A stretch of DNA of 64,000 nt from Lachnospiraceae bacterium (lineage in GTDB: Bacteria; Bacillota; Clostridia; Lachnospirales; Lachnospiraceae): positions 62,001-126,000 of the forward strand of contig JAGAJL010000012.1 in assembly GCA_017626095.1 (NCBI GenBank), read 5' to 3'. The notes below the pieces were generated by a model that saw only the letters and a list, made by a program, of their open reading frames with translations, ran no database searches and was not told the DNA's origin. How positions within the stretch are numbered: the stretch's first letter is position 1; each line of letters starts with the position of its first letter. Both the position numbers and the translations under genes were made by a program. Below are positions 19,758 through 42,703 of this stretch, one piece after another.

Positions 19758-20954
19758 ATGCAGGAAGCAAAAAAACTTGGCTATTTGGACGGGCTCAAAG
19801 TCATCGCCTGTTTTATGGTCTTTAATTTTCATTTTGTAAATCTGTTTTATCCCGGTGAATATTGCCTTTTACCGGAATATTATCATGCACCGAAAGTAGA
19901 ATATTTTATCGGTTCCACGCCTCTCAATATTCTGTGCGGAGCGAAGTTTGCGGTACGCATTTTTTTGGCGCTAAGTGGATTTTTTGTTGGATATCGTTTC
20001 TTTTTGACCAAAGATAAAGAATCTTTAAAATCCGGAGCCATAAAAAAATATTTCCGACTGGTATTTCCGATTGTGGCTGCCAATCTTTTGGTCTATATTC
20101 TGATGAAGCTTTCCTTGTATCAGAACGCGGAGGCATCTGTTTTAGCACATTCGGAGGTTTTTTCAGGCAATTACAATACCTTTGCACCCAGTTTGGGAGG
20201 AGCCTTGAAAGAGGCTTTTATCGGTTGTTTTATCAATGGCTCTAATCAGTATAATGGGCCCATCTGGTTTATCTTTTATGAGTTTTTCGGAACTCTAATG
20301 GTTGCTGTCATCATTTTACTGTTCGGAGAAAAAAAATGGCGCCACATCGTTTATGCGGTTGCGGCAATTGCCTTTATCCGTTCGGATTTTCTTTCCATGA
20401 TTTTAGGCATGGTAGTTTGTGATCTGACCTATTGTGAGCCTAAATGGCTTGCAAAGTTTTCGACGAAGCGGTGGCTTATGGGATTGCTTTTGGCATGCGG
20501 AATTTTCTTAGGCTCATTTCCGCCAATCGGTGAACATTATGAAGGAACCATTTATCAGTTCTTTCCCATCAAAGTTATGTTTTATTATAATGTGGCTGCA
20601 CCTATGATTTTATATGCGCTGTTACATTTGAAAACTGTGCCGAAGGCTTTGGACATCAAGGTGCTGACCTGGTTTACCAAATATACTTATTGTTTTTATT
20701 TGCTGCATTTTCCAATCCTATGTACCTTTTCGAGCGGATTGTTTATCGCATGGTATGGAAAAATAAATTATCATTTATTGGCATTCATTAATGTACTTCT
20801 GACGGTTTTACTGATTTCGGTTCTGGCTGTATTGATGCATAAATTTGTTGAAAAACCAGGCATTAAAATAGCGAATATGGTTGTGGAATTATTTGAAGGT
20901 AATACTGGGGAAGAGAAAACTGTAGAAGAAAAAACTGAGATAGAAAAAACTTAA
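19758..20954 (+). CDS. Acyltransferase family 3 membrane protein
   Basis: 398 residues with about ten hydrophobic segments. The N-terminus YLDGLKVIACFMVFNFHFVNLF has the start of the acyltransferase-3 signature, with the catalytic-type histidine after the first helix. NGPIWFIFYEF and the C-terminal YCFYLLHFPIL stretch are also typical. These enzymes O-acylate sugars on exported or lipid-linked glycans. A low-complexity E/K/T tail (EEKTVEEKTEIEKT) ends the protein. It begins 92 bases after the SDR gene, in the same direction. Confidence 0.88.
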   Translation: MQEAKKLGYLDGLKVIACFMVFNFHFVNLFYPGEYCLLPEYYHAPKVEYFIGSTPLNILCGAKFAVRIFLALSGFFVGYRFFLTKDKESLKSGAIKKYFRLVFPIVAANLLVYILMKLSLYQNAEASVLAHSEVFSGNYNTFAPSLGGALKEAFIGCFINGSNQYNGPIWFIFYEFFGTLMVAVIILLFGEKKWRHIVYAVAAIAFIRSDFLSMILGMVVCDLTYCEPKWLAKFSTKRWLMGLLLACGIFLGSFPPIGEHYEGTIYQFFPIKVMFYYNVAAPMILYALLHLKTVPKALDIKVLTWFTKYTYCFYLLHFPILCTFSSGLFIAWYGKINYHLLAFINVLLTVLLISVLAVLMHKFVEKPGIKIANMVVELFEGNTGEEKTVEEKTEIEKT

Positions 20955-21024
20955 GAAGACATTTCTTAAACATATTGAAAATTGTAAGCAGTAGATAACA
21001 AAAGCAGGAAGCATTGTAGAAGAT

Positions 21025-22125
21025 ATGAAAGAAAATGTTTTGCGCAAGAACTGGATTGATGCCGCAAAGGCTGTTGCCATGTTCATTGTAGTATTAAATC
21101 ATAGCGAACTTCGAATACCCGGCGTAAATTTTTGGGGCGGCATGTTTTTTGTGCCGGCCTTTTTCCTATTGTCCGGTTACACCTATCATCCGGATAATGG
21201 GACGTATATTGACTATGTAAAAAAGAAAGCAAAACGTCTGCTAATTCCTTATCTGGTGGTCAATCTTTTTTTATTTCTGTTCTTTTTAATAAAAAGGGTT
21301 TTGACACATAATTTATCTTCGGATTTTGTTGTCAGGTCACTCTTTGGAATTCTATATGGTCGAAATCAGATTTTTATAAGATCAGATTATCATTCGAATC
21401 TGATGATTAATCTCAATGCACCGACCTGGTTTTTGCCTGCATTATTTGTAGCGTTGATCATGTTGGAAGGCTTTTATCGTTTATATAAAGGAAATGAAAA
21501 AAAAGTAGTGCTGATTGTAGTTGTTTATGCGCTTTTTGCAACCGGATATCATTATTTCGTGCCGGTTCTTTTGCCTTGGTGTCTTGATATCATGCCGTTT
21601 TTCCTTTTGATGATGTTGGCCGGAAATCTGCTCAAAAAAATAGATTTTTTTAATGAGAATGATGAAAAATTAATTTTGGAGATTTCTCCTAAAATAAGGC
21701 GTGTTGTCATTGTGCTCCTTTTTATCATCTGTATCGTTTCAGGACTGCTCAACGGTTCCTATAATTTATCGCTGAGCGATACCGGAAAGAGTGTTACATT
21801 GATGTGTACGGCGGCAATCAGTTCTTCTATTTTATTAATGGTCATCATGAACTTACTGGATAAAAAAGCAGAAAAAATCTGCTCCATTTTAGCAAAACTT
21901 GGTAAGCATACGCTAACTATTTTGTGCTATCACTATTTTATTCTGGTTATGGTGATGATGGTTCTCGGATTTTTAGACAATTATCTTATGAATTGGATCA
22001 TGCAGTATCCGGACTGGGTTTTACAAATGCTTTATGCTGTTGAAAAGTTGGTAGCCATCGTTGTCTCAATTGCTGCTTGTGTGATGATAGATGGAATTAA
22101 GAGAAAAATATCCCATAGTGTGTAA
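21025..22125 (+). CDS. Acyltransferase family 3 membrane protein
   Basis: 366 residues. RKNWIDAAKAVAMFIVVLNHSEL carries the family pattern with the first-helix histidine, followed by FFVPAFFLLSGY and the NAPTWFLPALF stretch, all typical of acyltransferase-3 enzymes related to the OafA/WecH group. It lacks the charged inserts seen in the third acyltransferase gene at 24742. It is 70 bases downstream of another acyltransferase-3 gene, so two different O-acyl modifications, or two positions, are plausible. Confidence 0.88.
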   Translation: MKENVLRKNWIDAAKAVAMFIVVLNHSELRIPGVNFWGGMFFVPAFFLLSGYTYHPDNGTYIDYVKKKAKRLLIPYLVVNLFLFLFFLIKRVLTHNLSSDFVVRSLFGILYGRNQIFIRSDYHSNLMINLNAPTWFLPALFVALIMLEGFYRLYKGNEKKVVLIVVVYALFATGYHYFVPVLLPWCLDIMPFFLLMMLAGNLLKKIDFFNENDEKLILEISPKIRRVVIVLLFIICIVSGLLNGSYNLSLSDTGKSVTLMCTAAISSSILLMVIMNLLDKKAEKICSILAKLGKHTLTILCYHYFILVMVMMVLGFLDNYLMNWIMQYPDWVLQMLYAVEKLVAIVVSIAACVMIDGIKRKISHSV

Positions 22126-22275
22126 CTGGCGGGGCATGAGAGATAAAAATGAGAAGGCCATACCCCGCGGCAAACAACCGGCGGAGCGTAGAAGACATAA
22201 ACAGAGAAATATGGAACAGAAAACAGAAATCTGAGAACTATAGAAATACAGAAAAGAACGGAAAGAATATATTAT
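22126..22275 (+). other. Spacer with a GC-rich hairpin
   Basis: GCGGGGCATG at 22129-22138 pairs with CATACCCCGC at 22159-22168 (one G-T pair), just after the acyltransferase stop. A terminator is possible but no T-run follows. The GC content is clearly higher than in surrounding spacers. The rest of the spacer is A-rich degenerate sequence of the kind seen between other genes in this locus. Confidence 0.5.
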
Positions 22276-24741
22276 ATGCAGACAAAGTTTTATCGGGGAA
22301 TCCGGTTTTTTATTTTTTCCATATCGATGGCAGTTTTTGCTATATTTTCCATATACTTGCTAATTATGGGAGCATTTGTATGGTTTAACGGTGGCTGCAG
22401 TGCTTTTGAGCAACTGCCGGTTATTCTGCGCGGAATTTGCATGTTGCTGTCAGTCATGCTTTTAACCATGGTATATCGTATTGTGGGGAAAAAGCTTGTT
22501 TCTTTACCAAAGCAGAAACTAAAACAAATTGCCATGATGACCGGTGCATGTATGTTCGTGCTGCAGATGGTATTTGTGATGCTTGCAAAAGCCGGGATAC
22601 GCTATGATTCGTTAAAAGTAGTAGATGAAGCCATTGCTCTTTTCAGTCAGCCGGGAATACAGGAAACGGATTTGGAGGGATATTTTGCCCGTTATGCCAA
22701 TAACTACGCTATGACGATCATGACGCACTGGTTTATTAAAATCTTTCGTATGATTGGTCTGATCAGGCAGGATTTTTCCAATGCGGTCATTGTTTTACAG
22801 TTTATCAATGTTCTGTTTGTAGATGCTGCATTTGCCGGCTGTTATGCTTTTTTAAATAAATATTTTTCAAAAGCAAAGGCTGTCTTGTTTTTGCTTTACA
22901 TGGTCTTTAATCCTTTAAGCTATGTCTGGCTTCCGTTTTATTATACCAATACCTGTTCCATGGCCTTTGCCATCTGGGGGATTTATCTTTTATATACGGT
23001 TTATGACTTAATATGTGAGAAAAATGATAAAATAACAAAGCAAGCAGAAATGCATAAAGCGACAATTGGAGAAAACGAAGAGCAAGTAGAAAAACAAGAA
23101 GTAGCAATCGGAGAAAATGTAAAACAATCAGAAATTCAAGTTGTAGCAATCGAAGAAAACATAAAACAATCAGAAACGAAAACAGAAGAAACGATAGACA
23201 CAGATAATGATTTGAAGCAACAAAGGCGAAATCATATAAAGCAAATACTTTATACTATATTAGCCGGTATTATCTTTTACTTTGGTTATAAGCTTCGTGC
23301 AACGGTGGCCATTGCACTGATTGCCGCTGTTATCGGCCTGTATTGCAGGGGAAAACGGATAAATCTAAAAAGCTTTATCCTTGTTCTTCTTCTGTTTTGT
23401 ATCTCATTTGGAGGCACAAAAATCATTTATGGTGCCGTGGAAGATCACTATCTGGCATTTGATGAAACAGATACGGCATTTCCTTTGACACATTGGATTG
23501 CTATGGGATTGAACGAATTGGGGGATGGTTCTTTTAATGCAAATGATGAACAAAGAACCATGAGTTATCTTACTGCGAAGGAGAAAAAAGATGCGACTGT
23601 TTCGCTGCTAAAGGAGCGTGCAGACGAACTGGGAGCTTTGGGTATTGCAAAGCTGTATATGCGCAAATTGTCCAATACCTATGCGGATGGTGCGGGTGGT
23701 TACCATTCGGAGTTGAATATCAGCAGTGACTATGGTCTGATTTGGCAGATTGTCTACGGAGTTCACAGAGATCCGGTTCTTTTATGGACCCAGATTTTTT
23801 ATTTGATGTCAATTTTGTGCAGTATTTTTGCTGTTGTTTCTTTCTTTCAAAAAAGATTGCCGGTCGAAGGATTTGTTTTACTGCTTTTATTAACAGGAAG
23901 TTATCTGTTTCAGATGATTTGGGAATCTGCAACGATTTACAGTATCGGGACGATGTATTTAAATGGATGTATGGTTGCCTTAGGCTTACCGATGTGGAAA
24001 ATGAAACATCTTACAGAAAGTGGAATAAAGAAAAATGCATTGCTTCTTGCAGATGATGCTGTGGAGGAATATACATTAATTACTGCAGAAAAGGTTGTGG
24101 AGAAAGATGTATCAATCTTTTCAGAAGGCATAATAAAGAAACAATCATTGCTTTCTGCAAATATTTTTGAAAATAATAGGAAATACAAAAAAAACAAAAA
24201 ACACAATAGAATAGTATTTAATCTCTGTGTTATATTATTTGGAATTCTTGGTTTGGGAATTCTAATTGGAAAATTAGCGAAAACGGATTATGTTGAGGTC
24301 AGTGTCAGTGTCGACCAGTTTTTATTCCAGGCACAGGAATATCCGGCATTATCCGATGGACAATGCATTACACAGACCTTTGAGAGTGAAAAAGATTTTT
24401 CTATCATATCATTTCAGGTACGTAACCTGACGGGAGCGTATAATGATAGTGTTTACATGATTTCGTTATGTGATCAGAATGGAAATTGTTTACAGAAACA
24501 GCAGTTGATTGGTTCTGAGACGACGGACTACGGATTTTGTCCTCTCTGTTTTCAAAATGTGCCTGAGGTTACAAAATATGAAATACAGATTGAAAAAGAA
24601 GCCGGTGAAGATGATTTGATTTTCTTATATTATGATACCGGACACTACGACACCTATCAAAAAGGAAAGATGACAGGACCAATGATTGAAGGCGAGCTTG
24701 CGGATTTGTTATTCGAGGTTTATGACCGGGAGGAAGAGTAA
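22276..24741 (+). CDS. Polytopic GT-C-like membrane glycosyltransferase with C-terminal beta domain (paralogue)
   Basis: 821 residues, paralogous to the protein at 10866. Shared points are an acidic motif after the third membrane segment (IRYDSL), the YFARYANN motif in place of YPNQN, GYKLRATV, TDTAFPLTHW, YADGAGGY and the C-terminal NDSVY beta domain. Two charged inserts interrupt the membrane part: one encoded at about 23025-23230, made of 14-residue repeats, and one at about 24005-24205. The first occupies the same loop as the unrelated KETG-rich insert of the paralogue. The ATG of the next gene follows the stop with no gap, so the genes are coupled. Likely acts at the outer membrane face; sugar unknown. 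Confidence 0.72.
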   Translation: MQTKFYRGIRFFIFSISMAVFAIFSIYLLIMGAFVWFNGGCSAFEQLPVILRGICMLLSVMLLTMVYRIVGKKLVSLPKQKLKQIAMMTGACMFVLQMVFVMLAKAGIRYDSLKVVDEAIALFSQPGIQETDLEGYFARYANNYAMTIMTHWFIKIFRMIGLIRQDFSNAVIVLQFINVLFVDAAFAGCYAFLNKYFSKAKAVLFLLYMVFNPLSYVWLPFYYTNTCSMAFAIWGIYLLYTVYDLICEKNDKITKQAEMHKATIGENEEQVEKQEVAIGENVKQSEIQVVAIEENIKQSETKTEETIDTDNDLKQQRRNHIKQILYTILAGIIFYFGYKLRATVAIALIAAVIGLYCRGKRINLKSFILVLLLFCISFGGTKIIYGAVEDHYLAFDETDTAFPLTHWIAMGLNELGDGSFNANDEQRTMSYLTAKEKKDATVSLLKERADELGALGIAKLYMRKLSNTYADGAGGYHSELNISSDYGLIWQIVYGVHRDPVLLWTQIFYLMSILCSIFAVVSFFQKRLPVEGFVLLLLLTGSYLFQMIWESATIYSIGTMYLNGCMVALGLPMWKMKHLTESGIKKNALLLADDAVEEYTLITAEKVVEKDVSIFSEGIIKKQSLLSANIFENNRKYKKNKKHNRIVFNLCVILFGILGLGILIGKLAKTDYVEVSVSVDQFLFQAQEYPALSDGQCITQTFESEKDFSIISFQVRNLTGAYNDSVYMISLCDQNGNCLQKQQLIGSETTDYGFCPLCFQNVPEVTKYEIQIEKEAGEDDLIFLYYDTGHYDTYQKGKMTGPMIEGELADLLFEVYDREEE
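23059..23190 (+). repeat. In-frame 42/45-bp repeat in membrane-protein loop
   Basis: Units start near 23059, 23104 and 23146 and encode AIGENVKQSE-type segments. The spacings are 45 and 42 bases, both multiples of three. Located in a predicted cytoplasmic loop. Confidence 0.8.
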
Positions 24742-26178
24742 ATGAAAAGCATGACAGGAAATGTCAAAGTAAATGCAGAATTTACAAAACTGAATAGAGA
24801 TATTTCTTTAGATGCTGTTAAGGGATTTGCCATTCTACTGGTTATGTTGGGTCATTGCATTGTGTTAAATGGGTTAGCAGACCCTTACTTATATGATGCT
24901 ATTGCAGCGGTTCAGATGCCGTTGTTTATGGCAGTGAGCGGATATCTTGCAGGACAAAAACATGGTGAGCCGGAACAAAAGCCTGATTTAAAAAGAAGTG
25001 CCAAAACTTTTGGAAAGAGAAGTGTAGCATATCTGGTTCCCTTTTTTACATGGATGATAATTGTTTCGTTTCCACATTGTTTGAAGGAGCTAAAAACAGA
25101 GTTGTTTCATTTAGATTATGGGCTCTGGTTTCTGGCGACACTTTGGATTATCACACTTGTTCATATGATAGCATCATATCTTGCCGATTATTCTGCGTAT
25201 ACCGTAAGTATGCATGGCGCTGTGGTTTCACAAAGTGCGGTTGAAAATGAAACTGATACTATGCATGATGTTGTGGATGGACAACATACAATTGAAAATG
25301 AATCTAAAACGATTGGTAGCCAAGATGAAATGGAAAAAAGGGATTGCCATGGCCCTAATAAAGTAGGTCGCAAGGAAAAAACAATCCGATTTCTTGTATA
25401 TTGTCTGGTTATTTTTATCTGTTATTCCGGTTTCTTTTTACAGGCTCGAAGCGGAAATACCTTTTTAAGCCCCAGTCTGACAGTGCGTTATCTGCCATTT
25501 TATGTTGTGGCATATCTGGTGGCTTATGATGTTCTTCCGTATTTACAAAAAAGGAAAACTCATGGATTGGATGATGGACAAGAGCAGTATACAATTGGAC
25601 AAAACAAAGTAGATGAATTAGATAAAATCAAACAGACAACTATGAATGAGTATGTTGAAAAATGTGATGATACTAGTATGAAAGGCAGAGCAGATGGAGC
25701 CCCAAAAATAAAATCCATTAGGAATAATCACATAGTTAGTAATATCTTTTGTATGTTGTGCACACTTATTTTCATTTATCTGGTATGTGCCTATGACATG
25801 GTGGTGGTAACGGATACGACCTCGCTCATTATCCAGATGACAGCCTCTTTTTTGGGTGTTTTTGCCTGCTTTTACGGCGTGGCACATTTTTGTAAAGGAT
25901 GGTTACAAAGGGCTTTTGCATATATCGGTCAGTATACTTTGGAAATCTACGTTCTTCATTTCCGTTTTGCAAGAATTTTGGGACTTTCTGAGAAAAATCT
26001 GTCGCCCTTTCATGCGGATACTATATTGTGGATACTCGCAACATTTGTACTTATGAGTATTCTGACGGCTGTCTTTATTTCTGCTTTGAAGCAGCTTTGG
26101 ATAACTGATTTCTTATGCTTCGGAAAAATCCGTTCTCGCAGGAAGAAACAAACATCACAAGAAGCAGAAATACCGTAA
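24742..26178 (+). CDS. Acyltransferase family 3 membrane protein with long charged inserts
   Basis: 478 residues, about 100 longer than its two relatives in the window. The N-terminus ISLDAVKGFAILLVMLGHCIVL carries the family signature with the histidine; VQMPLFMAVSGYLAG and the C-terminal YTLEIYVLHFRFA also fit. The extra length is two hydrophilic low-complexity inserts, encoded at about 25205-25380 and 25545-25720, both placed between membrane segments. The start abuts the stop of the GT-C-like gene, with GGGAGGAAG at 24728-24736 as ribosome site. The last 104 bases overlap the end of the convergent gene on the other strand. Confidence 0.85.
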   Translation: MKSMTGNVKVNAEFTKLNRDISLDAVKGFAILLVMLGHCIVLNGLADPYLYDAIAAVQMPLFMAVSGYLAGQKHGEPEQKPDLKRSAKTFGKRSVAYLVPFFTWMIIVSFPHCLKELKTELFHLDYGLWFLATLWIITLVHMIASYLADYSAYTVSMHGAVVSQSAVENETDTMHDVVDGQHTIENESKTIGSQDEMEKRDCHGPNKVGRKEKTIRFLVYCLVIFICYSGFFLQARSGNTFLSPSLTVRYLPFYVVAYLVAYDVLPYLQKRKTHGLDDGQEQYTIGQNKVDELDKIKQTTMNEYVEKCDDTSMKGRADGAPKIKSIRNNHIVSNIFCMLCTLIFIYLVCAYDMVVVTDTTSLIIQMTASFLGVFACFYGVAHFCKGWLQRAFAYIGQYTLEIYVLHFRFARILGLSEKNLSPFHADTILWILATFVLMSILTAVFISALKQLWITDFLCFGKIRSRRKKQTSQEAEIP

Positions 26179-27844
26179 CAAACATCATCGGATAATTATA
26201 TTGGATAAAAGAAGCAGGAGCAGTCAGAAAAATGACTGCTTCTCTTGCTATCAGGGAAGCAAATGCAAAGAAATAAAAAAGCTTTTTCTCTAATAACGTA
26301 TACAACATAAAGATTGCGGCAAAAAACAAAATAATCAGATATGCTTCGCCGCCATGTTCAAACAAAAACAGCAGTATATCCTGACTGCTTTCATAATGCC
26401 ATCGTGCATTACCGTTTACCAGTTCTTTTCCATATTCCCGGTCAGCCTGGAAGGATAAAAATTCAGATGTAGTAACCGGCTTTAAATTCATTACCATAGC
26501 AGGATTATAGTCATAGTATCCGTTAGTCACTGCTAACAGTTGTAGACGTTCAGCAATATATAAATCCAGATTGTTCCAGATCAGCCTGACCGCACTTTTT
26601 AAAAAGGCTTTCTGTGTGTCGGCATCTGCTCCGGTTTCGGTAAAATGACCGCTGTTGTGATCAGAATTGTAGCGGTTATAGGAACTGCACGAAAGTGTTT
26701 CGTAACTGATATAATCCAAGTCAATAACAGCATCAATATTTGCAAGATCTTCCTCGGCACCCACATAGGTCTGTTCTCTGTGGATAATCAGGGAAAGCGG
26801 ACGGATGGTGGAAATAATCAGATAGTCACTTCCGTAATATTTCTTCTCCCCATTAGTCTGGGGGATTTTAATCAAAGAAAACGAGATGATAAATACCAGT
26901 AAAAAACAGAGTGCGTGTTTACATTGAAAACGGACAGTTCGATCAGTTTGACCTGTTTTTTGGGGCAATCCATAAACTGTAGGAATCAACACAAAACAGA
27001 ACAAAATCAGAACAATCCCTTCACTGCGCCAGAAACAAAGCAAGGCGGTTAAGAGAGAAAGCATAATACTTTTTGGTATGCTAAAAGAAGCTTTTTTCTG
27101 TTTTTCAAAGAATAGAAAAGCAAAGAAAAACAGGAAAAAGGGTGCATACAATACCGGTCGAAAACACATGGCGGCAGATAAGAGCACAAAAGGAAAAAGA
27201 CCGGCGATAGCAATGACATATTTTATTTTTGCAGTATATAAACGGTCAGTTTCATAGAAAATATAGGAAAAAACCATAGCCAGAATCAAATCGTTTAAAA
27301 TGATGGGACCTGTGGAAGCCGGAAACAAAGAAAGCCCAATCATGTAATAAATGCTGGTCAGATAATTATGCCAGTAGACCGGATAATAGCGGGTGGCATA
27401 ACCCAAAATAATGGTATCGTCACTCATGAAATAACCGGGATAATTCAGGAGAAGAATTCCCAGATATATGGCAAAATAAATGACAAAAGCAAATAACAGC
27501 TTACGATGACGGATGCCATAAGAGATAAAACACAGAAGCCCGACAATTGTTCCAAGCAATACAATTTTGGAAAGAATCTGCATCAAAAAAACAGCATCAG
27601 TATCGATGGGCAGACTGCTCATATTGAGAGGATCACCGGTAAATATTTTTGTGTCCGTGATAAAAGTAAGTGCCCACCAGATCAGCGAAAGGATGCCGAT
27701 GATCAGGATGTTTTTGCGTCCGGATATATAATTGTTTGTGGTGGTTTTGTCAGTGTTGTTTGGTTCGCCAGTTTGGTTAGTTTTGCCAGTTTGGTTAGTT
27801 TCGCCAGTGATATTAGTTTTATCAGTTTTGATTATGTTAGTCAT
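26075..27844 (-). CDS. Polytopic membrane protein, DUF6020-like (GT-C-like)
   Basis: 589 residues with around twelve hydrophobic segments. The NYPGYFMSDD motif near residue 140, followed by WHNYLTSIYYMIG, is what I associate with DUF6020 membrane proteins; it has the look of the acidic loop of GT-C transferases. The N-terminal 40 residues are a T/N/G-rich repeat (TNQTGK-type units) before the first membrane segment. The gene is convergent with and overlaps the acyltransferase-3 gene by 104 bases. Its left neighbour on the same strand is distant, so it is likely transcribed alone. Function unproven. Confidence 0.65.
   Translation of the reverse strand: MTNIIKTDKTNITGETNQTGKTNQTGEPNNTDKTTTNNYISGRKNILIIGILSLIWWALTFITDTKIFTGDPLNMSSLPIDTDAVFLMQILSKIVLLGTIVGLLCFISYGIRHRKLLFAFVIYFAIYLGILLLNYPGYFMSDDTIILGYATRYYPVYWHNYLTSIYYMIGLSLFPASTGPIILNDLILAMVFSYIFYETDRLYTAKIKYVIAIAGLFPFVLLSAAMCFRPVLYAPFFLFFFAFLFFEKQKKASFSIPKSIMLSLLTALLCFWRSEGIVLILFCFVLIPTVYGLPQKTGQTDRTVRFQCKHALCFLLVFIISFSLIKIPQTNGEKKYYGSDYLIISTIRPLSLIIHREQTYVGAEEDLANIDAVIDLDYISYETLSCSSYNRYNSDHNSGHFTETGADADTQKAFLKSAVRLIWNNLDLYIAERLQLLAVTNGYYDYNPAMVMNLKPVTTSEFLSFQADREYGKELVNGNARWHYESSQDILLFLFEHGGEAYLIILFFAAIFMLYTLLEKKLFYFFAFASLIAREAVIFLTAPASFIQYNYPMMFVTVFLLLVMFVSSCENGFFRSIRNQLSKAASKQK
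27749..27838 (-). repeat. Five-unit 18-bp in-frame repeat at the N-terminus of a membrane protein
   Basis: On the + strand the GCCAGTTTGGTTAGTTTT-type unit recurs at 27767, 27785 and 27803, with diverged units at 27749 and 27821. It encodes six-residue TNQTGK-type units just after the start codon, ahead of the first membrane segment. Confidence 0.85.
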
Positions 27845-36797: not shown

Positions 36798-36802
36798 AAA
36801 AG

Positions 36803-36863
36803 AAAAACATCTCTCTTGTTTTTAGACCAAAAGATGATCTGGATAACAAGAGAGATGTTTTTT
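36803..36863. terminator. Bidirectional terminator between convergent operons
   Basis: AAAAACATCTCTCTTGTT at 36803-36820 pairs with AACAAGAGAGATGTTTTT at 36845-36862, a stem of about 17 bp. It stops + transcription after the DUF2442 gene and - transcription directly after the ACP stop codon. Confidence 0.88.
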
Positions 36864-37104
36864 ATGAAATCCGACTCAAAATCAAATCAACCATGGCACC
36901 GACATTTTTCATGGTGGTTACTTCGCCCATGTTGAACTTGATGCCAAAACAATTTTCCACAGCCACAATCAAATTGATATGTTCTAAGCTGTCCCAGTCC
37001 TCAATATCATCTGCTGTTGTTTCATCGTTGACGATAATTTCTTCATCGTCGAAAACATCCTGAAATACTTCATTTAATTTTTCAAAAACTTCTTCTCTGG
37101 TCAT
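36862..37104 (-). CDS. Acyl carrier protein
   Basis: 80 residues from the ATG at 37104, chosen over 37122 because AGAGGA lies 7 bases upstream of it. Acidic four-helix type; the IEDWDSLEHINLI motif places the phosphopantetheine serine at residue 39. It is the last gene of a - strand set with an FkbH-like HAD-IIIC protein, an MBOAT acyltransferase and an SGNH protein. In that setting it would carry an acyl group, by FkbH precedent a glyceryl thioester, to the MBOAT. It is unlikely to be the fatty-acid-synthesis ACP, which would lie in a fab cluster. Confidence 0.92.
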   Translation of the reverse strand: MTREEVFEKLNEVFQDVFDDEEIIVNDETTADDIEDWDSLEHINLIVAVENCFGIKFNMGEVTTMKNVGAMVDLILSRIS

Positions 37105-37130
37105 ATGTATTTCCTCTTTCATTTTTTATG

Positions 37131-37170
37131 TGATGTTGGGGTCAAAAGGTATTTTGACTCCATGATACCG
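37131..37170. repeat. Dispersed near-palindromic repeat, copy 1
   Basis: TGATGTTGGGGTCAAAAGG followed by TATTTTGACTCC and CATGATACC. Copy 2 at 43848-43887 matches at 31 of 39 positions. The inner part is self-complementary (GTCAAAA with TTTTGAC). It lies between the FkbH-like and ACP genes. Confidence 0.65.
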
Positions 37171-37180
37171 TTTAATCTTT

Positions 37181-38959
37181 CTAATTAACATCAATTACAC
37201 AATTGCGCTTTTCATAATGCTTAGGAATAACAAAACTCCATACAGAATTTTCTCCGTCATCGGATATTTTTTCAAATCCCAAACTATTACCATAAAAATC
37301 TTTTACCATGGCATTTTTGGCTGTTTTATAATAATAGCCGCGAATTTCTTTGATGCCGTGCCTGATACAAGTATCTACGATTTCATCCAATAATGCAAGT
37401 TCCATGTCACGTTTTAAGACCCGACAGCTCATCAGCCAGAGTTCCATATGGCAGATGGTAGCATCTACACGACCAATGGCTACTGTTACCACACCATTAT
37501 CTCCAAACTTATCTTCCAGTTTTCCGTAAAATGAAAGCTTCGTGGGATCTTCTAAGACTTGGGAAATTTCTTCCTGTGTATATCTGCGGGTAGTCAGGTT
37601 AAACTGATTGCTTTTGTTTGTAAGCTGTGCGATTCGTGATAAATAAACGGGCTCGAACGGACCAATTACAGCCTTCATTTCCAGCGATTTTAAATAGTCT
37701 TCATAATTATCAAATGATTGAATAGTAGCATTTCGCTCCACATTTGCTTTATACATATTGCTACGATTCAGATCATCCTTGGATAATTTTAAAACTTCAA
37801 AATAACCATGTTTGTCAATCTGACGAATATACTGATCAACAGAAGTAATTTCCGGAACTGCAACCGATGGAAGCTGCTTTTTGATAATTTCTCTTTCAGC
37901 GGGATTGTCATCGACAAATACCAGACTGTTTTCCAAAATGTTCAATTCTTTTGCTATGGTAGCAGTATTGATGCTTTTAGGTTCCCAGTTAGCTTTGATA
38001 ACAATAAAATCTTCTTTTTTCAAAATACCGTCCGGATGAGACAGACCGGAAAAAGCGTTTTCTTCTTCGTTTTTGGAACTGATATTTAGTAATACGCCCA
38101 TGTCTTTATGTGCTTTCAAATAGGACTGGAATTCACAATATGCCTGACCGATGGATGTTTCCTGGCCTAATTCCAGATTTTCCATACCATCGTCGCCAAC
38201 AATACCGCCCCAGAGCGTGTTGTCAAGATCCAGGACAAACGCCTTTTTGTTCATCCCGTAAATTGCTTTGATAATATGTGACAGATTATAAGCAAAGGTG
38301 GGAATGGCGGGAACGCACAAAGCATATTTGTACATGTGCCAGTAAAAAGGATCTGACCATGCATCCAGTCCATAGCCGGCAGATAAAGACAGAATGTCGT
38401 GAATATAAAAACTTTCGTGCTCTTGTGCATATTGATGAAATAAATCATTTAATTTTAAAATGAAATTGGTACGTCCATGCAGATTGACACAATCCTGATT
38501 GCCGAGCAGACGATAGGAAGGCAGTTCCATATTATTTTGAATAATGGGGCAGTGGTATTGATCGGACAGATGCTCCCACATATCTTCAAACTCATGGTAA
38601 ACATTGGCTAACTTCTCGGAAACGGTATTTTCGTCATCGGACATTTCTGGATAAAAGCGAATGTTGCGATTGGTGGTATGGATAAAAATCAGATCCGGTG
38701 CAAAGTCTAAAAGTTCCGGCGGATCAAACATGGCATCCTCATAATACTGATTGTATTCGGATTCATAAAATTCAGCCTTGATACCATAATTTAATAGAAA
38801 TAAATCCAGAATTTTTACAATATCACTTGTGGTCGAACCGCCCAGTACAGCTATTTTTTTCATTAAAAAAGTCCTGTCGGTATCCAAAAGTTCCCGGCGA
38901 AGTTTCTTTTTCTTTTTTAAAATATAATCAGAATCAAACGGATATTCTAACTCTTTCAT
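37181..38959 (-). CDS. HAD-IIIC family protein, FkbH-like acyl loader
   Basis: 592 residues from the ATG at 38959, which has GAGGAG 8 bases upstream; an ATG at 38995 has no such site. An N-terminal SGNH-like region (VLGGSTTSDI) is followed by the HAD domain with LDLDNTLWGGIVGDDG and FVDDNPAEREIIK, then a GNAT-like domain containing LTNKSNQFNLTTRRYT. This order is that of FkbH-type proteins, which take a glyceryl group from 1,3-bisphosphoglycerate, dephosphorylate it and place it on an ACP. The ACP gene lies 76 bases downstream. It may be the loader for extracellular glycan acylation by the MBOAT upstream. Confidence 0.88.
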   Translation of the reverse strand: MKELEYPFDSDYILKKKKKLRRELLDTDRTFLMKKIAVLGGSTTSDIVKILDLFLLNYGIKAEFYESEYNQYYEDAMFDPPELLDFAPDLIFIHTTNRNIRFYPEMSDDENTVSEKLANVYHEFEDMWEHLSDQYHCPIIQNNMELPSYRLLGNQDCVNLHGRTNFILKLNDLFHQYAQEHESFYIHDILSLSAGYGLDAWSDPFYWHMYKYALCVPAIPTFAYNLSHIIKAIYGMNKKAFVLDLDNTLWGGIVGDDGMENLELGQETSIGQAYCEFQSYLKAHKDMGVLLNISSKNEEENAFSGLSHPDGILKKEDFIVIKANWEPKSINTATIAKELNILENSLVFVDDNPAEREIIKKQLPSVAVPEITSVDQYIRQIDKHGYFEVLKLSKDDLNRSNMYKANVERNATIQSFDNYEDYLKSLEMKAVIGPFEPVYLSRIAQLTNKSNQFNLTTRRYTQEEISQVLEDPTKLSFYGKLEDKFGDNGVVTVAIGRVDATICHMELWLMSCRVLKRDMELALLDEIVDTCIRHGIKEIRGYYYKTAKNAMVKDFYGNSLGFEKISDDGENSVWSFVIPKHYEKRNCVIDVN

Positions 38960-39105
38960 ATGACTTTGCTCCTCATATCTGAAATTCGTTTTCATTAAAT
39001 TTATGGTATAACTATCTGTACTGTATTTGCAACAATTTGCTTTTGTTTCTCCCTGTCCTCTTGTTTACAAGGAATATTTGTGCTATTTCCTATTGTTCCT
39101 ACTTG

Positions 39106-40815
39106 TTAAAATTGTTGATAAATAAATGCCTGTGCGTCATACCCAGGACCGTAGCAGCCAAACAAAATGACACTGACAAAAAGTGCAATGTATAAAATCC
39201 AGCGGAACAGCAGCGGCTGACTGGCAATCAGAACCCGAATGGGAACTTTTTTCACATAACGTATAATGCCTGCAATGGCTAAAACCATCATATAGAATAC
39301 AATAATCTGCCAGTCCTTTGCATCCAATCCAAAAGAGAGAAGGGAACCATCAAAAAAGATCCAGGGACTGAATTCGAATAATGCGGAACGCCAGATTTTC
39401 AGACCTTCCAGAAAGCCGCCGTAGGAGCGGAAAAAAGACAGGCCAAATGTAAACAAACAAAATGTGCGGATACACTGAAATAAGCGAAAACCAAAGGAAT
39501 CGACATTTACTTTTAATACGGTAATGAGCTTGTCTGTCAAAGGCTTAATCATCTCACCGAGAATAATCACAACTCCGAAAAACAGGCCGACCCCAATGAT
39601 GTAGTTCCAATATCCGCCATGCCAGAAACCGATTAAAAACCAGGAAATTAACATACCGCACCAGACCGGTATTTTTTTGCCGGTTTTCTTGCCAAATTTC
39701 TTTTTACACAATGTTCCTAATTTTTGAAAAGGTGCTGATTTCAAAATGGAATACAGAATATAATCTCTTAAAAAAGCACCGATGGATATATGCCAACGTC
39801 TCCAGAATTCGGAAAGACTGTGGGAAATAAAAGGAAGGTCAAAGTTTTCCGGCAAATCGATACCGAGCATTTCTGAAATACCGATGATGATATCGATGCA
39901 ACCTGAAAAATCGGTATAGAGCTGGAAAACAAACAAAACCATTGCCAGCAAGACATAAGTTCCTACAAAACAGTTATAACCGTTTCCGTCATAAATGGCA
40001 TTGACATAGACTGCGAGACGTGATGAAATAACAAGTTTTTTCATCAGACCCCATAAAATACGCTGAAGTCCAAAACAAAACTTCTCATAATCAAAGCGGT
40101 GTCCGGTGACAATGGAAGCAGAATAGTCCTTGTATCGGATGATAGGACCGGAAGTTAAAAGCGGAAAATATCCGGCAATGACGGAAAACTTCAGGATATT
40201 TTTTTCTGCTGTTGCAATTCCCCAATAGACATCCAGAAGATACCCTATCCAGGAAAGAGAATAATAAGAAATTCCGATAGGAGCCGTAAAATGAACCTGA
40301 GGGAATCGAAGCGGAATGTGAAGAGCTCCTGCCATTAGATTCCAGGTATTGATAAAGAAATTCGAATCCTTTAATACAATCAGAAATCCTGCGATACAGA
40401 TAATTGATAATGTCAAAACGAGTTTGATTTTCTTATTGTTTGCTGTATTTGTTTCTTTCGTTTTATTCGTTTTATTTGTATTATTTGTTTTATTCGTTTC
40501 AATTATATTAGTCGATTTATTTTTGGATATGTTCGTATCTATACTCGGATTATTAACGCGCTTTGAATCAATATCAGATATGATTGCCGTGGTATTTGTA
40601 GTTTTCTCACGGCATTTACCAATGTAGTTAGCGGTTGCATACGTAACAAAAGCCGGGATCAGCATACAGACAAGAGCAAAAACAGAATCAGCTTGCAAAA
40701 TAAACCAGATATTGGAAACAAGAAGCGCAAGAAAGCGGAATTTCAGTGGGAGAAGATAATACAGGCAAACGGTGCATGCAATCATAATAAAAAATTCAAA
40801 TGATGTTAAGCTCAT
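39106..40815 (-). CDS. MBOAT O-acyltransferase (AlgI/DltB-like)
   Basis: 569 residues, polytopic. SLSEFWRRWHISIGAFLRDY and IGFWHGG, with the presumed catalytic histidine at 399, are the standard MBOAT motifs; YTDFSGCIDI is also conserved. AAGGAG lies 6 bases before the ATG. After the second or third membrane segment there is a hydrophilic insert encoded near 40435-40610, including a 9-bp repeat (TNK/NKT-rich). In the dlt and alg systems the MBOAT carries an acyl group across the membrane with an SGNH partner; here the partner is the gene just upstream and the donor is probably the FkbH-loaded ACP. Confidence 0.92.
   Translation of the reverse strand: MSLTSFEFFIMIACTVCLYYLLPLKFRFLALLVSNIWFILQADSVFALVCMLIPAFVTYATANYIGKCREKTTNTTAIISDIDSKRVNNPSIDTNISKNKSTNIIETNKTNNTNKTNKTKETNTANNKKIKLVLTLSIICIAGFLIVLKDSNFFINTWNLMAGALHIPLRFPQVHFTAPIGISYYSLSWIGYLLDVYWGIATAEKNILKFSVIAGYFPLLTSGPIIRYKDYSASIVTGHRFDYEKFCFGLQRILWGLMKKLVISSRLAVYVNAIYDGNGYNCFVGTYVLLAMVLFVFQLYTDFSGCIDIIIGISEMLGIDLPENFDLPFISHSLSEFWRRWHISIGAFLRDYILYSILKSAPFQKLGTLCKKKFGKKTGKKIPVWCGMLISWFLIGFWHGGYWNYIIGVGLFFGVVIILGEMIKPLTDKLITVLKVNVDSFGFRLFQCIRTFCLFTFGLSFFRSYGGFLEGLKIWRSALFEFSPWIFFDGSLLSFGLDAKDWQIIVFYMMVLAIAGIIRYVKKVPIRVLIASQPLLFRWILYIALFVSVILFGCYGPGYDAQAFIYQQF
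40457..40501 (-). repeat. Five-unit 9-bp in-frame repeat in the MBOAT loop
   Basis: TTCGTTTTA-type units at 40457, 40466, 40475, 40484 and 40493 on the + strand, encoding NKT-type tripeptides on the - strand. Located in a loop between membrane segments. Confidence 0.85.
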
Positions 40816-40921
40816 GGTTCTTCTCCTTTGTATATAGTATGTTTTTTAATTATCTGTTTTTAGATAATTTCTTTGTAGATAATATTTTAGAGCAACTTTT
40901 TCACAGATTGCTTCTGAAAGG

Positions 40922-42073
40922 TTATTGATATAAATCTGTCAGAAAATCCTGATAATATTGTTTCGTGCTTTCAAAATCAGATGAAGTTTTCGGAGTGGCA
41001 AGACCTTCGGAAAGTACAAAATCAGCCAGATAATCCGAAATTTTTTCGCCGCCTGAAATGGTCATATGATGAGTATCGTAGCAATCTGTGAAATAATCCA
41101 TCTGCGTTGCTTCGTATAGTTCTTTGGTATTGAAGTCTAAATAAGTCAGATTGTTTGCGGCTGCGTACTGAGCTGTTAAATCATGGCGGGCTTGTGTCTG
41201 AATGGGAGCAACCGTGGTTACAAGAACAAGACGAATATTTTTTTCTTTGCAAAGGGCTACGATTTTATCCATATATTCCTGCATCAGGGGCAGGATGGTC
41301 TCATCTGATGTAGCGGTGGCAGTAACTGTTTTTGAAGCGGTTTCGTCTGTAGTTGATATAGAAACATTTGTGATATTTGTACTATTTGAAAAATCTTTAG
41401 CAGCTACATTCGTATTTTCCAGTGGAACAAAATCGGGCTCACCCTCTTCATGCAGGCTGCCATAAAGAGGTGCAAACCCATATAGTTTACTGGGGGTATA
41501 TGTAAAGTCCAGTTTTCCAAGCTCTTTCCAACGGTCATGATAACGCACAATGGGAAGATAGTAGCTTAATTCAGATTGAGATGAATCCAAAGAGCAAATG
41601 TCATGAACAGCGGTCATTTTGACTTTGGACCATTTCATATAGTCGAAATCCTTACGTTGTCCCGGCTCCTTAAAATTGAGTGGTTCATCTTCATAAAAGG
41701 TAAACAGCATCTGATTATCCAGAAATACAACAGAAGGAGACTGAAAACGAAGTGCTTCCTCCAACCAGTAATAGGAAGTAATCAAGGTCTGTTCAGGAGA
41801 TGCCAGATTATAGCTGACAATTCCGTTTTTGTCATATAAGTACTGGGGAATACCGGCTGTAGACATGCAACTGCTTCCGACAAATAAAACATCAACCGTA
41901 TTTTCTTCCATTTCATAAAATTGGGTAAAAGTAGACGTGGATGGCCAGCTGGAGTTTTCCAATAAAAATTTTGGAACCACCAGTTTGGTCACATAATAGG
42001 TAATAATGATAATCAACAGACTAAAAACAGCTGTTTTAATGACAGCTGTCTTTGTTAATGGCTTACTTTGCAT
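40922..42073 (-). CDS. SGNH/DltD-like membrane-anchored acyl-handling protein
   Basis: 383 residues: one N-terminal membrane anchor (about 14-33) and an extracytoplasmic SGNH-like domain. VLFVGSSCMSTAGIP holds the presumed nucleophile serine in a GSS form of the GDS block, and DTHHM near the end provides the D-x-x-H acid/base pair. NLASPEQTL fits the block after it, and a T/S/N/A-rich repeat insert is encoded at about 41290-41420. DltD and AlgX/AlgJ proteins with this layout work with an MBOAT in O-acylation of exported glycans, and the MBOAT gene is next. Confidence 0.8.
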   Translation of the reverse strand: MQSKPLTKTAVIKTAVFSLLIIIITYYVTKLVVPKFLLENSSWPSTSTFTQFYEMEENTVDVLFVGSSCMSTAGIPQYLYDKNGIVSYNLASPEQTLITSYYWLEEALRFQSPSVVFLDNQMLFTFYEDEPLNFKEPGQRKDFDYMKWSKVKMTAVHDICSLDSSQSELSYYLPIVRYHDRWKELGKLDFTYTPSKLYGFAPLYGSLHEEGEPDFVPLENTNVAAKDFSNSTNITNVSISTTDETASKTVTATATSDETILPLMQEYMDKIVALCKEKNIRLVLVTTVAPIQTQARHDLTAQYAAANNLTYLDFNTKELYEATQMDYFTDCYDTHHMTISGGEKISDYLADFVLSEGLATPKTSSDFESTKQYYQDFLTDLYQ

Positions 42074-42116
42074 AAAAAAGCTTCTTCTTTCGCATATCTA
42101 TTTTCTTTACAATATT

Positions 42117-42230
42117 GCAATCTGACATAAATATCACAACAATTTTGCAATATCGCAATCTGACATAAATATCGTAACAATTTTGCAATATCGCAATCTG
42201 ACTGAAATACCGCAACAATCTTGCAATATT
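42117..42230. repeat. Three-copy 38-bp tandem repeat
   Basis: Units start at 42117, 42155 and 42193, each GCAATCTGACATAAATAT or a variant, then CAACAATTTTGCAATAT. Units 1 and 2 are almost identical. It fills the spacer between the PAP2-like gene and the SGNH gene, so it is transcribed within the presumed - strand operon. Confidence 0.88.
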
Positions 42231-42238
42231 TCAATAAA

Positions 42239-42703
42239 CTACATCACATTATAGTAAATAATCGCAATACTGATTCCCAAAAATGCACCGACAAATATCT
42301 GAATGGGAGTATGTCCAACAAATTCCTTCAGATGTTCATGAGCCTTAGAAGGCTTCCATTGTGGCATTTCTTTAAACATTAACAGCATGTCATTCAGTAT
42401 TTTAGCTTGTTTTCCTGTTTCCAGACGCACGCCCATAGCATCGTTCATAACGATGATGGCAAAAAAAGCAACCATAGGAAACTCGAATCCTGAAAAACCA
42501 TAATGCAGGCCGGTAGCTGTTGCTAACGCACATACAGTTGCCGAATGCGAACTGGGCATTCCACCATTGCCCAAAAAACGTTCAAAGCGGAATTCTTTGT
42601 TGACAATTAAATATATAATCATTTTTAAAAACTGAGCTACAAACCACCCCAGTGCGGCACTGGCGAATAGTGGATTGTTAAGTATATCAAGAATAATATT
42701 CAT
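42239..42703 (-). CDS. Divergent PAP2 family membrane protein (DUF212/YuiD-like)
   Basis: 154 residues, four or five hydrophobic segments. GNGGMPSSHSATVCAL at about 46-60 is the conserved phosphatase-like motif, and VMNDAMGVRLETGKQAKILND follows, both typical of the divergent PAP2 (DUF212) family. The role is unproven; hydrolysis of a polyprenyl or lipid phosphate would fit a polysaccharide locus. It is the first gene of the - strand set leading to SGNH, MBOAT, FkbH-like protein and ACP, separated by a repeat-filled 165-base spacer, so membership of that operon is probable but not certain. Confidence 0.85.
   Translation of the reverse strand: MNIILDILNNPLFASAALGWFVAQFLKMIIYLIVNKEFRFERFLGNGGMPSSHSATVCALATATGLHYGFSGFEFPMVAFFAIIVMNDAMGVRLETGKQAKILNDMLLMFKEMPQWKPSKAHEHLKEFVGHTPIQIFVGAFLGISIAIIYYNVM

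Follow-up and report, generated by a model that had tools for sequence, protein, structure and literature searches.

The stretch of DNA analysed here (the window) covers 64 kb of the 2.74 Mb draft genome, 86.6% complete, of a Lachnospiraceae bacterium (contig JAGAJL010000012.1, positions 62,001 to 126,000). On its minus strand, positions 36862 to 42703 hold five genes which, according to their translations and family profile searches, encode in 5′ to 3′ order a DUF212 membrane protein, an SGNH protein resembling DltD, an MBOAT acyltransferase, an FkbH protein and an acyl carrier protein (ACP). The initial annotation had read these genes as a dlt-like acylation operon in which FkbH stands in for the adenylating loader DltA. 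The places, order and strand that it gave are borne out by the translations and profile searches, and the motifs that it listed (LDLDNTLWGG, DSL, WHGG, GSS and DTHH) are all found in the translations. The set is a variant of MBOAT-SGNH acylation with a different loader and not a Dlt system. Features recognised beyond that annotation are an acyl-shuttle tyrosine fused to the MBOAT, a terminator, an MBOAT clade shared with ligase-linked relatives, a lineage reaching the Alphaproteobacteria and variants with VOC or MaoC genes. The features of the locus are the following:

36862..37122, minus strand: stand-alone ACP (PF00550, 22.9 bits against a cut-off of 20.8)
37181..38995, minus strand: FkbH/HAD-IIIC loader resembling glyceryl-ACP synthases (TIGR01686 and FkbH_N, PF21211)
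39106..40815, minus strand: MBOAT acyltransferase, a relative of DltB with a C-terminal extension (PF03062, above cut-off)
39109..39126, minus strand: FIYQQF hexapeptide at the MBOAT C-terminus, an FXYXXF acyl-shuttle motif (from the translation)
39619..39621, minus strand: codon for the catalytic His399 of the MBOAT, part of WHGG (from residue conservation)
40922..42073, minus strand: membrane-anchored SGNH/DltD-like transferase with GSS at 66-68 and D333xxH336 (from profile comparison)
36800..36865, minus strand: intrinsic terminator 3′ of the ACP gene (free energy -29.7 kcal/mol, z -8.2)
42239..42703, minus strand: DUF212 divergent PAP2 membrane protein (PF02681, 161 bits)

The last four genes, from the SGNH-like gene to the ACP, are spaced about 60-150 bases apart, depending on the starts chosen. 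Shine-Dalgarno-like sites and comparison with relatives make 37104 the likely start of the ACP (80 residues) and 38959 that of FkbH (592 residues). Directly 3′ of the ACP gene lies a hairpin with a run of T; this strong terminator makes the ACP likely to be the last gene of the operon. It is absent from the output of a simple terminator scan, since that scan allows only loops of 3-8.

Loader, carrier and acyltransferases of the set

The ACP bears its phosphopantetheine site as DSL within EDWDSLEH, and a DS[LFIM] site is kept in all 76 ACPs compared, that of the window included. FkbH reaches 279 bits with model TIGR01686, whose curated cut-off is 146.65, and also matches PF21211. Seven HAD residues (D256, D258, T260, S307, K340, D362 and D363) and C524, within MSCRV, do not vary among 81 FkbH proteins, the window's included; C524 is presumably the residue that holds the glyceryl group. 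The FkbH of a cluster of polyketide synthase (PKS)/tetronate type (locus L135) has the same residues at all of these positions but differs at G53, S54 and T558. Together with what is known of the family, these shared residues are consistent with glyceryl being the cargo that FkbH would load. In non-ribosomal peptide synthetase (NRPS) lines, the accessible part of one report describes FkbH as replacing the adenylation domain and loading glyceryl from D-1,3-bisphosphoglycerate (PMC8949500), and the accessible part of another cites in vitro work on the transfer of glyceryl by Tmn16 to an ACP (PMC3625739). Neither KAS III nor the acyltransferase/dehydratase partners of the PKS glycerate-utilisation operon were found among the five genes and the neighbours scanned, in contrast to loci L135 and L153. 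A scan of the FkbH loci for AT3 and KAS III genes, which lacked a positive control and is given no weight, came back empty for every locus.

The MBOAT ends in FIYQQF, the sole exact F.Y..F end among 957 window open reading frames (ORFs) of at least 20 residues, and no separate DltX-like microprotein was found among these frames. In 80 related loci (described below), such an end is present on 102 of 103 MBOATs longer than 400 residues and missing from all 2660 remaining ORFs that reach 100 residues. F564, Y566 and F569 of the motif, as well as H399, are kept in 30 of 30 aligned MBOATs, and WHG is found in 64 of 65 window-like MBOATs longer than 400 residues, the exception lying in L082. The closest solved relatives of the window MBOAT are DltB proteins (profile E 1e-31); with the DltB model TIGR04091 it scores 134 bits, below the cut-off of 375. 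According to the accessible part of PMC12148441, PatA receives an acetyl group from acetyl-CoA on the tyrosine of its FXYXXF and PatB, the SGNH partner, accepts the acyl-tyrosine peptide as its donor, while in Dlt systems the motif sits on DltX. With the motif fused to the MBOAT, no DltX would therefore be needed in the window set, in which a fused shuttle and a dedicated carrier occur together. The MBOAT gene also contains a low-complexity stretch rich in Asn, Lys and Thr (40446-40522), made of 9/18/27-base tandem repeats, most of which is missing from the MBOAT of the close relative L034.

At the level of motifs, the set includes a separate SGNH protein with the expected Ser and DxxH. An alignment of 20 relatives shows H336 in every sequence and G66, S68 and D333 in at least 90%. 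When compared with the SGNH proteins that accompany other MBOATs in related loci, the SGNH-like protein of the window gives a profile probability of 97.9 (E 3.8e-13), and those proteins match Pfam DltD in five of five cases. Its profile gave no match to the GDSL set A6 and nothing useful in the PDB.

Related loci and the search for an adenylating ligase

The related loci are the best 80 of at least 478 FkbH matches, obtained by a contig profile search from an alignment of five FkbH proteins, and 68 of them are labelled Lachnospiraceae or a genus of that family. FkbH is present in all 80, an ACP in 75 and a window-like MBOAT in 67, with the shuttle motif on 66 of these MBOATs; the remaining one (L097) runs off the contig end. 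Both partners are encoded on the FkbH strand without exception (ACP 75/75, MBOAT 67/67). The ACP gene lies at a median of 49 bp from FkbH, and the MBOAT gene lies less than 1 kb away in 29 of the 67 loci and up to 8.9 kb away in the others. Kineothrix alysoides and Sinorhizobium meliloti are among the named bacteria with the set.

A second sample was drawn without regard to similarity to the window. In 200 genomes of the family, TIGR01686 was above cut-off at 43 places in 42 genomes; the window was left out and 42 places were examined. An ACP was found at 35 of them and an MBOAT of more than 380 residues within 9.5 kb at 19 (20 without the length filter). Among these MBOATs, 18 are on the FkbH strand and 18 carry the motif, one of them in the loose form YIYAGF. 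Assuming a chance of 0.09 per place, from 12 MBOAT matches in 2.74 Mb, the binomial probability of 19 in 42 is 8e-10, a rough figure because the places are not strictly independent. More widely, FkbH was above cut-off in 14 of 398 genomes of the phylum, that of the window included, and at 14 other places from phylum genomes an MBOAT was in the stretch at two, L145 and L147. The FkbH-ACP pair is thus also used elsewhere, as in a sugar cluster with MaoC and SDR genes (L176).

The claim that FkbH takes the place of DltA is upheld by the absence of an adenylating ligase from all 80 related loci (E<=0.01), both with a DltA-like seed and with a profile built from ten ligases. The initial annotation had named an adenylating loader next to the set in related genomes as a finding that would refute it, and in these nearest loci the outcome favours its reading. 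The seed recovers nine of nine ligase sets, one being its own, but is weak on divergent ligases, giving 23 bits where Pfam gives 304. The ten-ligase profile recovers divergent ligases that were not used in its making (L142, L147, L148, L174 and L190). In the family sample, a ligase occurs at two of the 42 places, neither of them beside an MBOAT. The sole PF00501 protein found in the window genome, in an assembly 86.6% complete, is acyl-CoA-synthetase-like and is encoded on another contig. With 12 MBOAT matches and a single PF00501 protein, most MBOATs of this genome must do without a dedicated adenylating loader. The DltA model TIGR01734 was above cut-off in none of 61 genomes; since it fails even in those with ligase-linked MBOATs, it does not discriminate.

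Two further arrangements were seen during these searches. Relatives of the window genome (L043-L051) have Dlt-like sets whose DltA-like ligase scores well below the DltA cut-off and whose MBOATs carry the fused shuttle motif, in some cases as a variant such as LIYAGY. In addition, a fused TIM-barrel/AMP-binding protein is encoded just after the ACP gene in L147 (11372-13894), where the MBOAT ends in FLYLRF; this is a possible two-loader set and the sole mixed case seen.

MBOAT lineages and accessory genes

In an unrooted tree of 60 MBOATs, of which the long rows L133, L147 and L037 make details unsure, 22 FkbH-linked MBOATs, including that of the window, form one clade (support 100/99). The 13 rows linked to DltA-like ligases all fall in the enclosing clade of 38 rows (98/99), and the FkbH-linked clade is set away from most MBOATs that have neither loader. 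Because FkbH-linked and ligase-linked MBOATs fall within one clade, the loaders appear to have been exchanged within it, in either direction given the open fork and the unrooted tree. The MBOAT of L037, without the motif, falls outside the 22-row clade.

A separate clade of seven rows (99/96) contains FkbH-linked MBOATs of Lachnospiraceae and of two Alphaproteobacteria, with one row labelled 'other'. On pSymB-type replicons of S. meliloti, an MBOAT ending in FLYQGF is accompanied by an SGNH-like protein, an ACP and FkbH, and a plasmid of Rhodobacteraceae SC52 encodes an ACP, FkbH, an MBOAT ending in FIYFNF, a GSS protein and a VOC protein. Shuttle MBOATs of two distinct lineages are thus linked to FkbH, those of the second lineage in two phyla. 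That all FkbH-linked MBOATs might form a single clade was considered and is ruled out by L102, L109 and L129, with 7 changes for three states. Among ten plasmid stretches of 115 FkbH records, an MBOAT was found in three, two of these from one species. In S. meliloti 1021 pSymB (L137, 13206-15268, minus strand), FkbH appears as two overlapping frames, and as one gene in the other strain (L133). The SGNH-like gene of S. meliloti is labelled 'TonB-dependent receptor' in CP050512, and the orphan ACP SMb20651 is an unconfirmed candidate for the ACP of the pSymB set.

Two kinds of accessory genes accompany FkbH in related loci. In 46 of the 80 loci, a VOC gene is found no more than 2.1 kb from FkbH, in 43 of these on the opposite strand. 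MaoC is encoded in 13 loci, always on the FkbH strand and with an SDR gene in 11 of them. VOC and MaoC never share a locus (Fisher P 2.9e-6 over 80 loci, kinship uncorrected), and the family sample gave VOC at 14 and MaoC at 7 of the 42 places, again with none shared. All six VOC proteins tested match the methylmalonyl-CoA epimerase model TIGR03081 below its cut-off, as the best match in five, and the metal-ligand-like residues H5, E54, H73 and E122 are each kept in 47 or 48 of 48; the solved relatives of one VOC protein, by sequence, are glyoxalase I or lactoylglutathione lyase. The VOC protein could thus be an epimerase of the acyl thioester, converting D- to L-glyceryl, and MaoC with SDR could dehydrate and reduce glyceryl to lactyl. 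The latter pair resembles the bryostatin loader, a likeness not found in the open-access literature searched. Together, these variants suggest other three-carbon acyl groups in relatives. Neither VOC nor MaoC(+SDR) genes lie beside the window set, and a search of the window genome for relatives of the L091 VOC, run without a positive control, came back empty. D-glyceryl would be the simplest product of the window set.

A probable glycolysis-fed route of surface acylation

Like Dlt systems, the window set combines a dedicated carrier protein, a DltB-related MBOAT, a putatively DltD-like SGNH protein and an FXYXXF tyrosine shuttle. It differs by having FkbH where Dlt has the adenylating DltA, by the fusion of the shuttle motif to an MBOAT that misses the DltB cut-off and is accompanied by no DltX-like ORF, and by its cargo, which is probably glyceryl and uncharged, instead of D-alanine. 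With an adenylating loader, DltX and the DltB cut-off all lacking, membership of Dlt was rejected. The fused FXYXXF, the WHG histidine and the separate SGNH partner are shared with PatA/PatB and other MBOAT-SGNH O-acetylation pairs, in contrast to which the window set has a dedicated ACP and a loader. FkbH with a stand-alone ACP is a trait of the glyceryl-ACP synthases of PKS/NRPS pathways (Tmn16 and, by prediction, Mad7 and Mad14). Unlike in those pathways, no KAS III or PKS genes were seen, and the acyl group would pass to a membrane acyltransferase and not to a polyketide. In the open-access literature searched, outside which most subscription papers lie, no description of FkbH with an MBOAT-SGNH acylation set was found; FkbH and MBOAT were mentioned together only in cyanobacterial peptide work, judged by title, and nothing was found for HAD-IIIC with MBOAT or for a gellan glyceryl acyltransferase of Sphingomonas.

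The set probably serves a glycolysis-fed O-acylation of an exported surface glycan by way of FkbH, the ACP, the MBOAT tyrosine and the SGNH serine. As its family suggests, FkbH would take 1,3-bisphosphoglycerate or a related phosphoglycerate, drop the phosphate and load a glyceryl thioester on the ACP. From the motif and the chemistry of PatA and Dlt, the MBOAT would then take the glyceryl group off the ACP and pass it through the membrane to the tyrosine in its C-terminal FIYQQF, from which the serine of the DltD-like protein would accept it and esterify a hydroxyl of a surface polysaccharide. Gene content, strand and order, motifs and their conservation, the failure to detect an adenylating ligase and the MBOAT tree are direct observations; glyceryl as cargo, the ester linkage and the acceptor are what we infer from them. 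A glyceryl ester on a bacterial exopolysaccharide has a precedent in native gellan, which carries L-glycerate on glucose (PMC9104527, accessible part), so glyceryl esters on surface glycans exist.

The acceptor is most likely the polysaccharide of the surrounding locus. The neighbouring genes, some named from reading of the sequence alone, encode a flippase, GT2, FdtA, a DegT aminotransferase, a GDP-fucose synthase-like protein, mannose-1-phosphate enzymes, AT3 and NeuB, and the region looks like a surface-polysaccharide locus. Nothing in it points to teichoic acid, and the 'teichoic-type polymer' of the initial annotation is unsupported. The same holds for DUF212 as a working part: it adjoins the acylation set in two of 80 related loci and, despite lying upstream on the same strand, probably does not belong to the acylation core. 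The same glycan region holds three Acyl_transf_3 (AT3) genes (19758-26178), which would be further acyltransferases. Also noted were 3.3 copies of a 38-base unit (89% matches) in the gap that separates the SGNH-like gene from DUF212 (42106-42229), and a second low-complexity Asn/Lys/Thr-rich stretch at about 27725-27844, at the start of ORF 26075-27844.

Several observations weigh against the proposed route. The SGNH-like protein matches no family at E<=0.001, Pfam DltD included, and a partner of its type is found on the FkbH strand in just 23 of the 67 loci with a window-like MBOAT. A GDSL-family protein is present, instead or as well, in 41 of these loci, one or the other type in 59 and neither within the stretch in 8. 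The MBOAT gene lies at least 1 kb from FkbH in 38 of the 67 loci, 13 of the 80 lack a window-like MBOAT, most of them in short stretches, and 23 of the 42 family-sample places have no MBOAT within 9.5 kb, some at contig ends. In L102, L109 and L129, an MBOAT of another lineage ending in FLYFNF or FLYFQF directly follows FkbH with no ACP nearby. An adenylating loader beside the set, absent from the 80 nearest loci, may be present in the more distant L147 (same class, other MBOAT lineage), where a TIM-barrel/AMP-binding protein is encoded close to FkbH, ACP and MBOAT. Lastly, the donor may be another phosphoglycerate, because the FkbH domain of vioprolide synthesis is reported, in the accessible part of PMC10099666, to activate 3-phosphoglycerate.

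The alternative that survives best, though rather unlikely, keeps the route and changes the cargo: FkbH could load another phosphorylated or three-carbon acid, or glyceryl-ACP could be epimerised or converted to lactyl by enzymes encoded elsewhere. The mutually exclusive VOC (46/80) and MaoC (13/80) genes are in its favour, as are the epimerase-like character and metal-ligand-like residues of the VOC proteins. However, the window set has neither gene beside it, the genome search for an L091 VOC relative, run without a positive control, found none, and the VOC genes, though within 2.1 kb, lie mostly on the other strand from FkbH. The residues shared with the PKS/tetronate-type FkbH, the HAD positions and C524, also speak for glyceryl, G53, S54 and T558 being the positions that do not match.

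It is very unlikely that FkbH and ACP serve a cytoplasmic N-acylation of a nucleotide sugar or another pathway, beside an MBOAT-SGNH pair acting as an ordinary acetyl-CoA acetyltransferase. FkbH and ACP do occur without an MBOAT in many loci, including L176, with genes that read as GNAT-like and NeuB-like from their sequence; in the window, the adjoining genes include those for FdtA and a DegT-type aminotransferase; and other shuttle-type MBOAT pathways are said, in the accessible part of PMC12148441, to use acyl-CoA without carriers. Against such a division of labour, FkbH and MBOAT share a strand in 67 of 67 loci, the FkbH-linked MBOATs group with ligase-linked ones and away from most loader-free ones, and FkbH is also paired with another MBOAT lineage, a pairing seen in two phyla. 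That the genes are mere neighbours in a crowded polysaccharide locus is hardly tenable, even in a window full of surface-glycan genes and a genome with 12 MBOAT matches, since the family sample gave 19 of 42 places where about 4 were expected and the same set recurs in Sinorhizobium and on a Rhodobacteraceae plasmid.

Glycolysis-fed acylation by FkbH, ACP, MBOAT and SGNH may itself be part of a modular three-carbon acylation of surface glycans in Lachnospiraceae and Alphaproteobacteria, a wider reading that is possible but towards which we do not lean. Two or more lineages of shuttle MBOATs would have taken up the ligase-free FkbH loader, one of them in place of a DltA-like ligase, and tailoring would set the product: D-glyceryl without accessory genes, L-glyceryl with VOC and lactyl with MaoC and SDR. 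It is weakened by the position of VOC mostly on the opposite strand and by a tree that does not fix the direction of exchange. If it is true, surface decoration follows glycolytic flux directly. The route proposed for the window set would itself widen the tyrosine-shuttle mechanism from acetyl and D-alanyl groups to a glycolytic three-carbon acid and show a loader to be exchangeable with the export machine unchanged. Surface chemistry would be linked to glycolysis because every ester would cost one 1,3-bisphosphoglycerate, which otherwise yields ATP. Glyceryl groups may also matter for gut glycans, given that they alter the gel properties of gellan, as described in the accessible part of PMC9104527.

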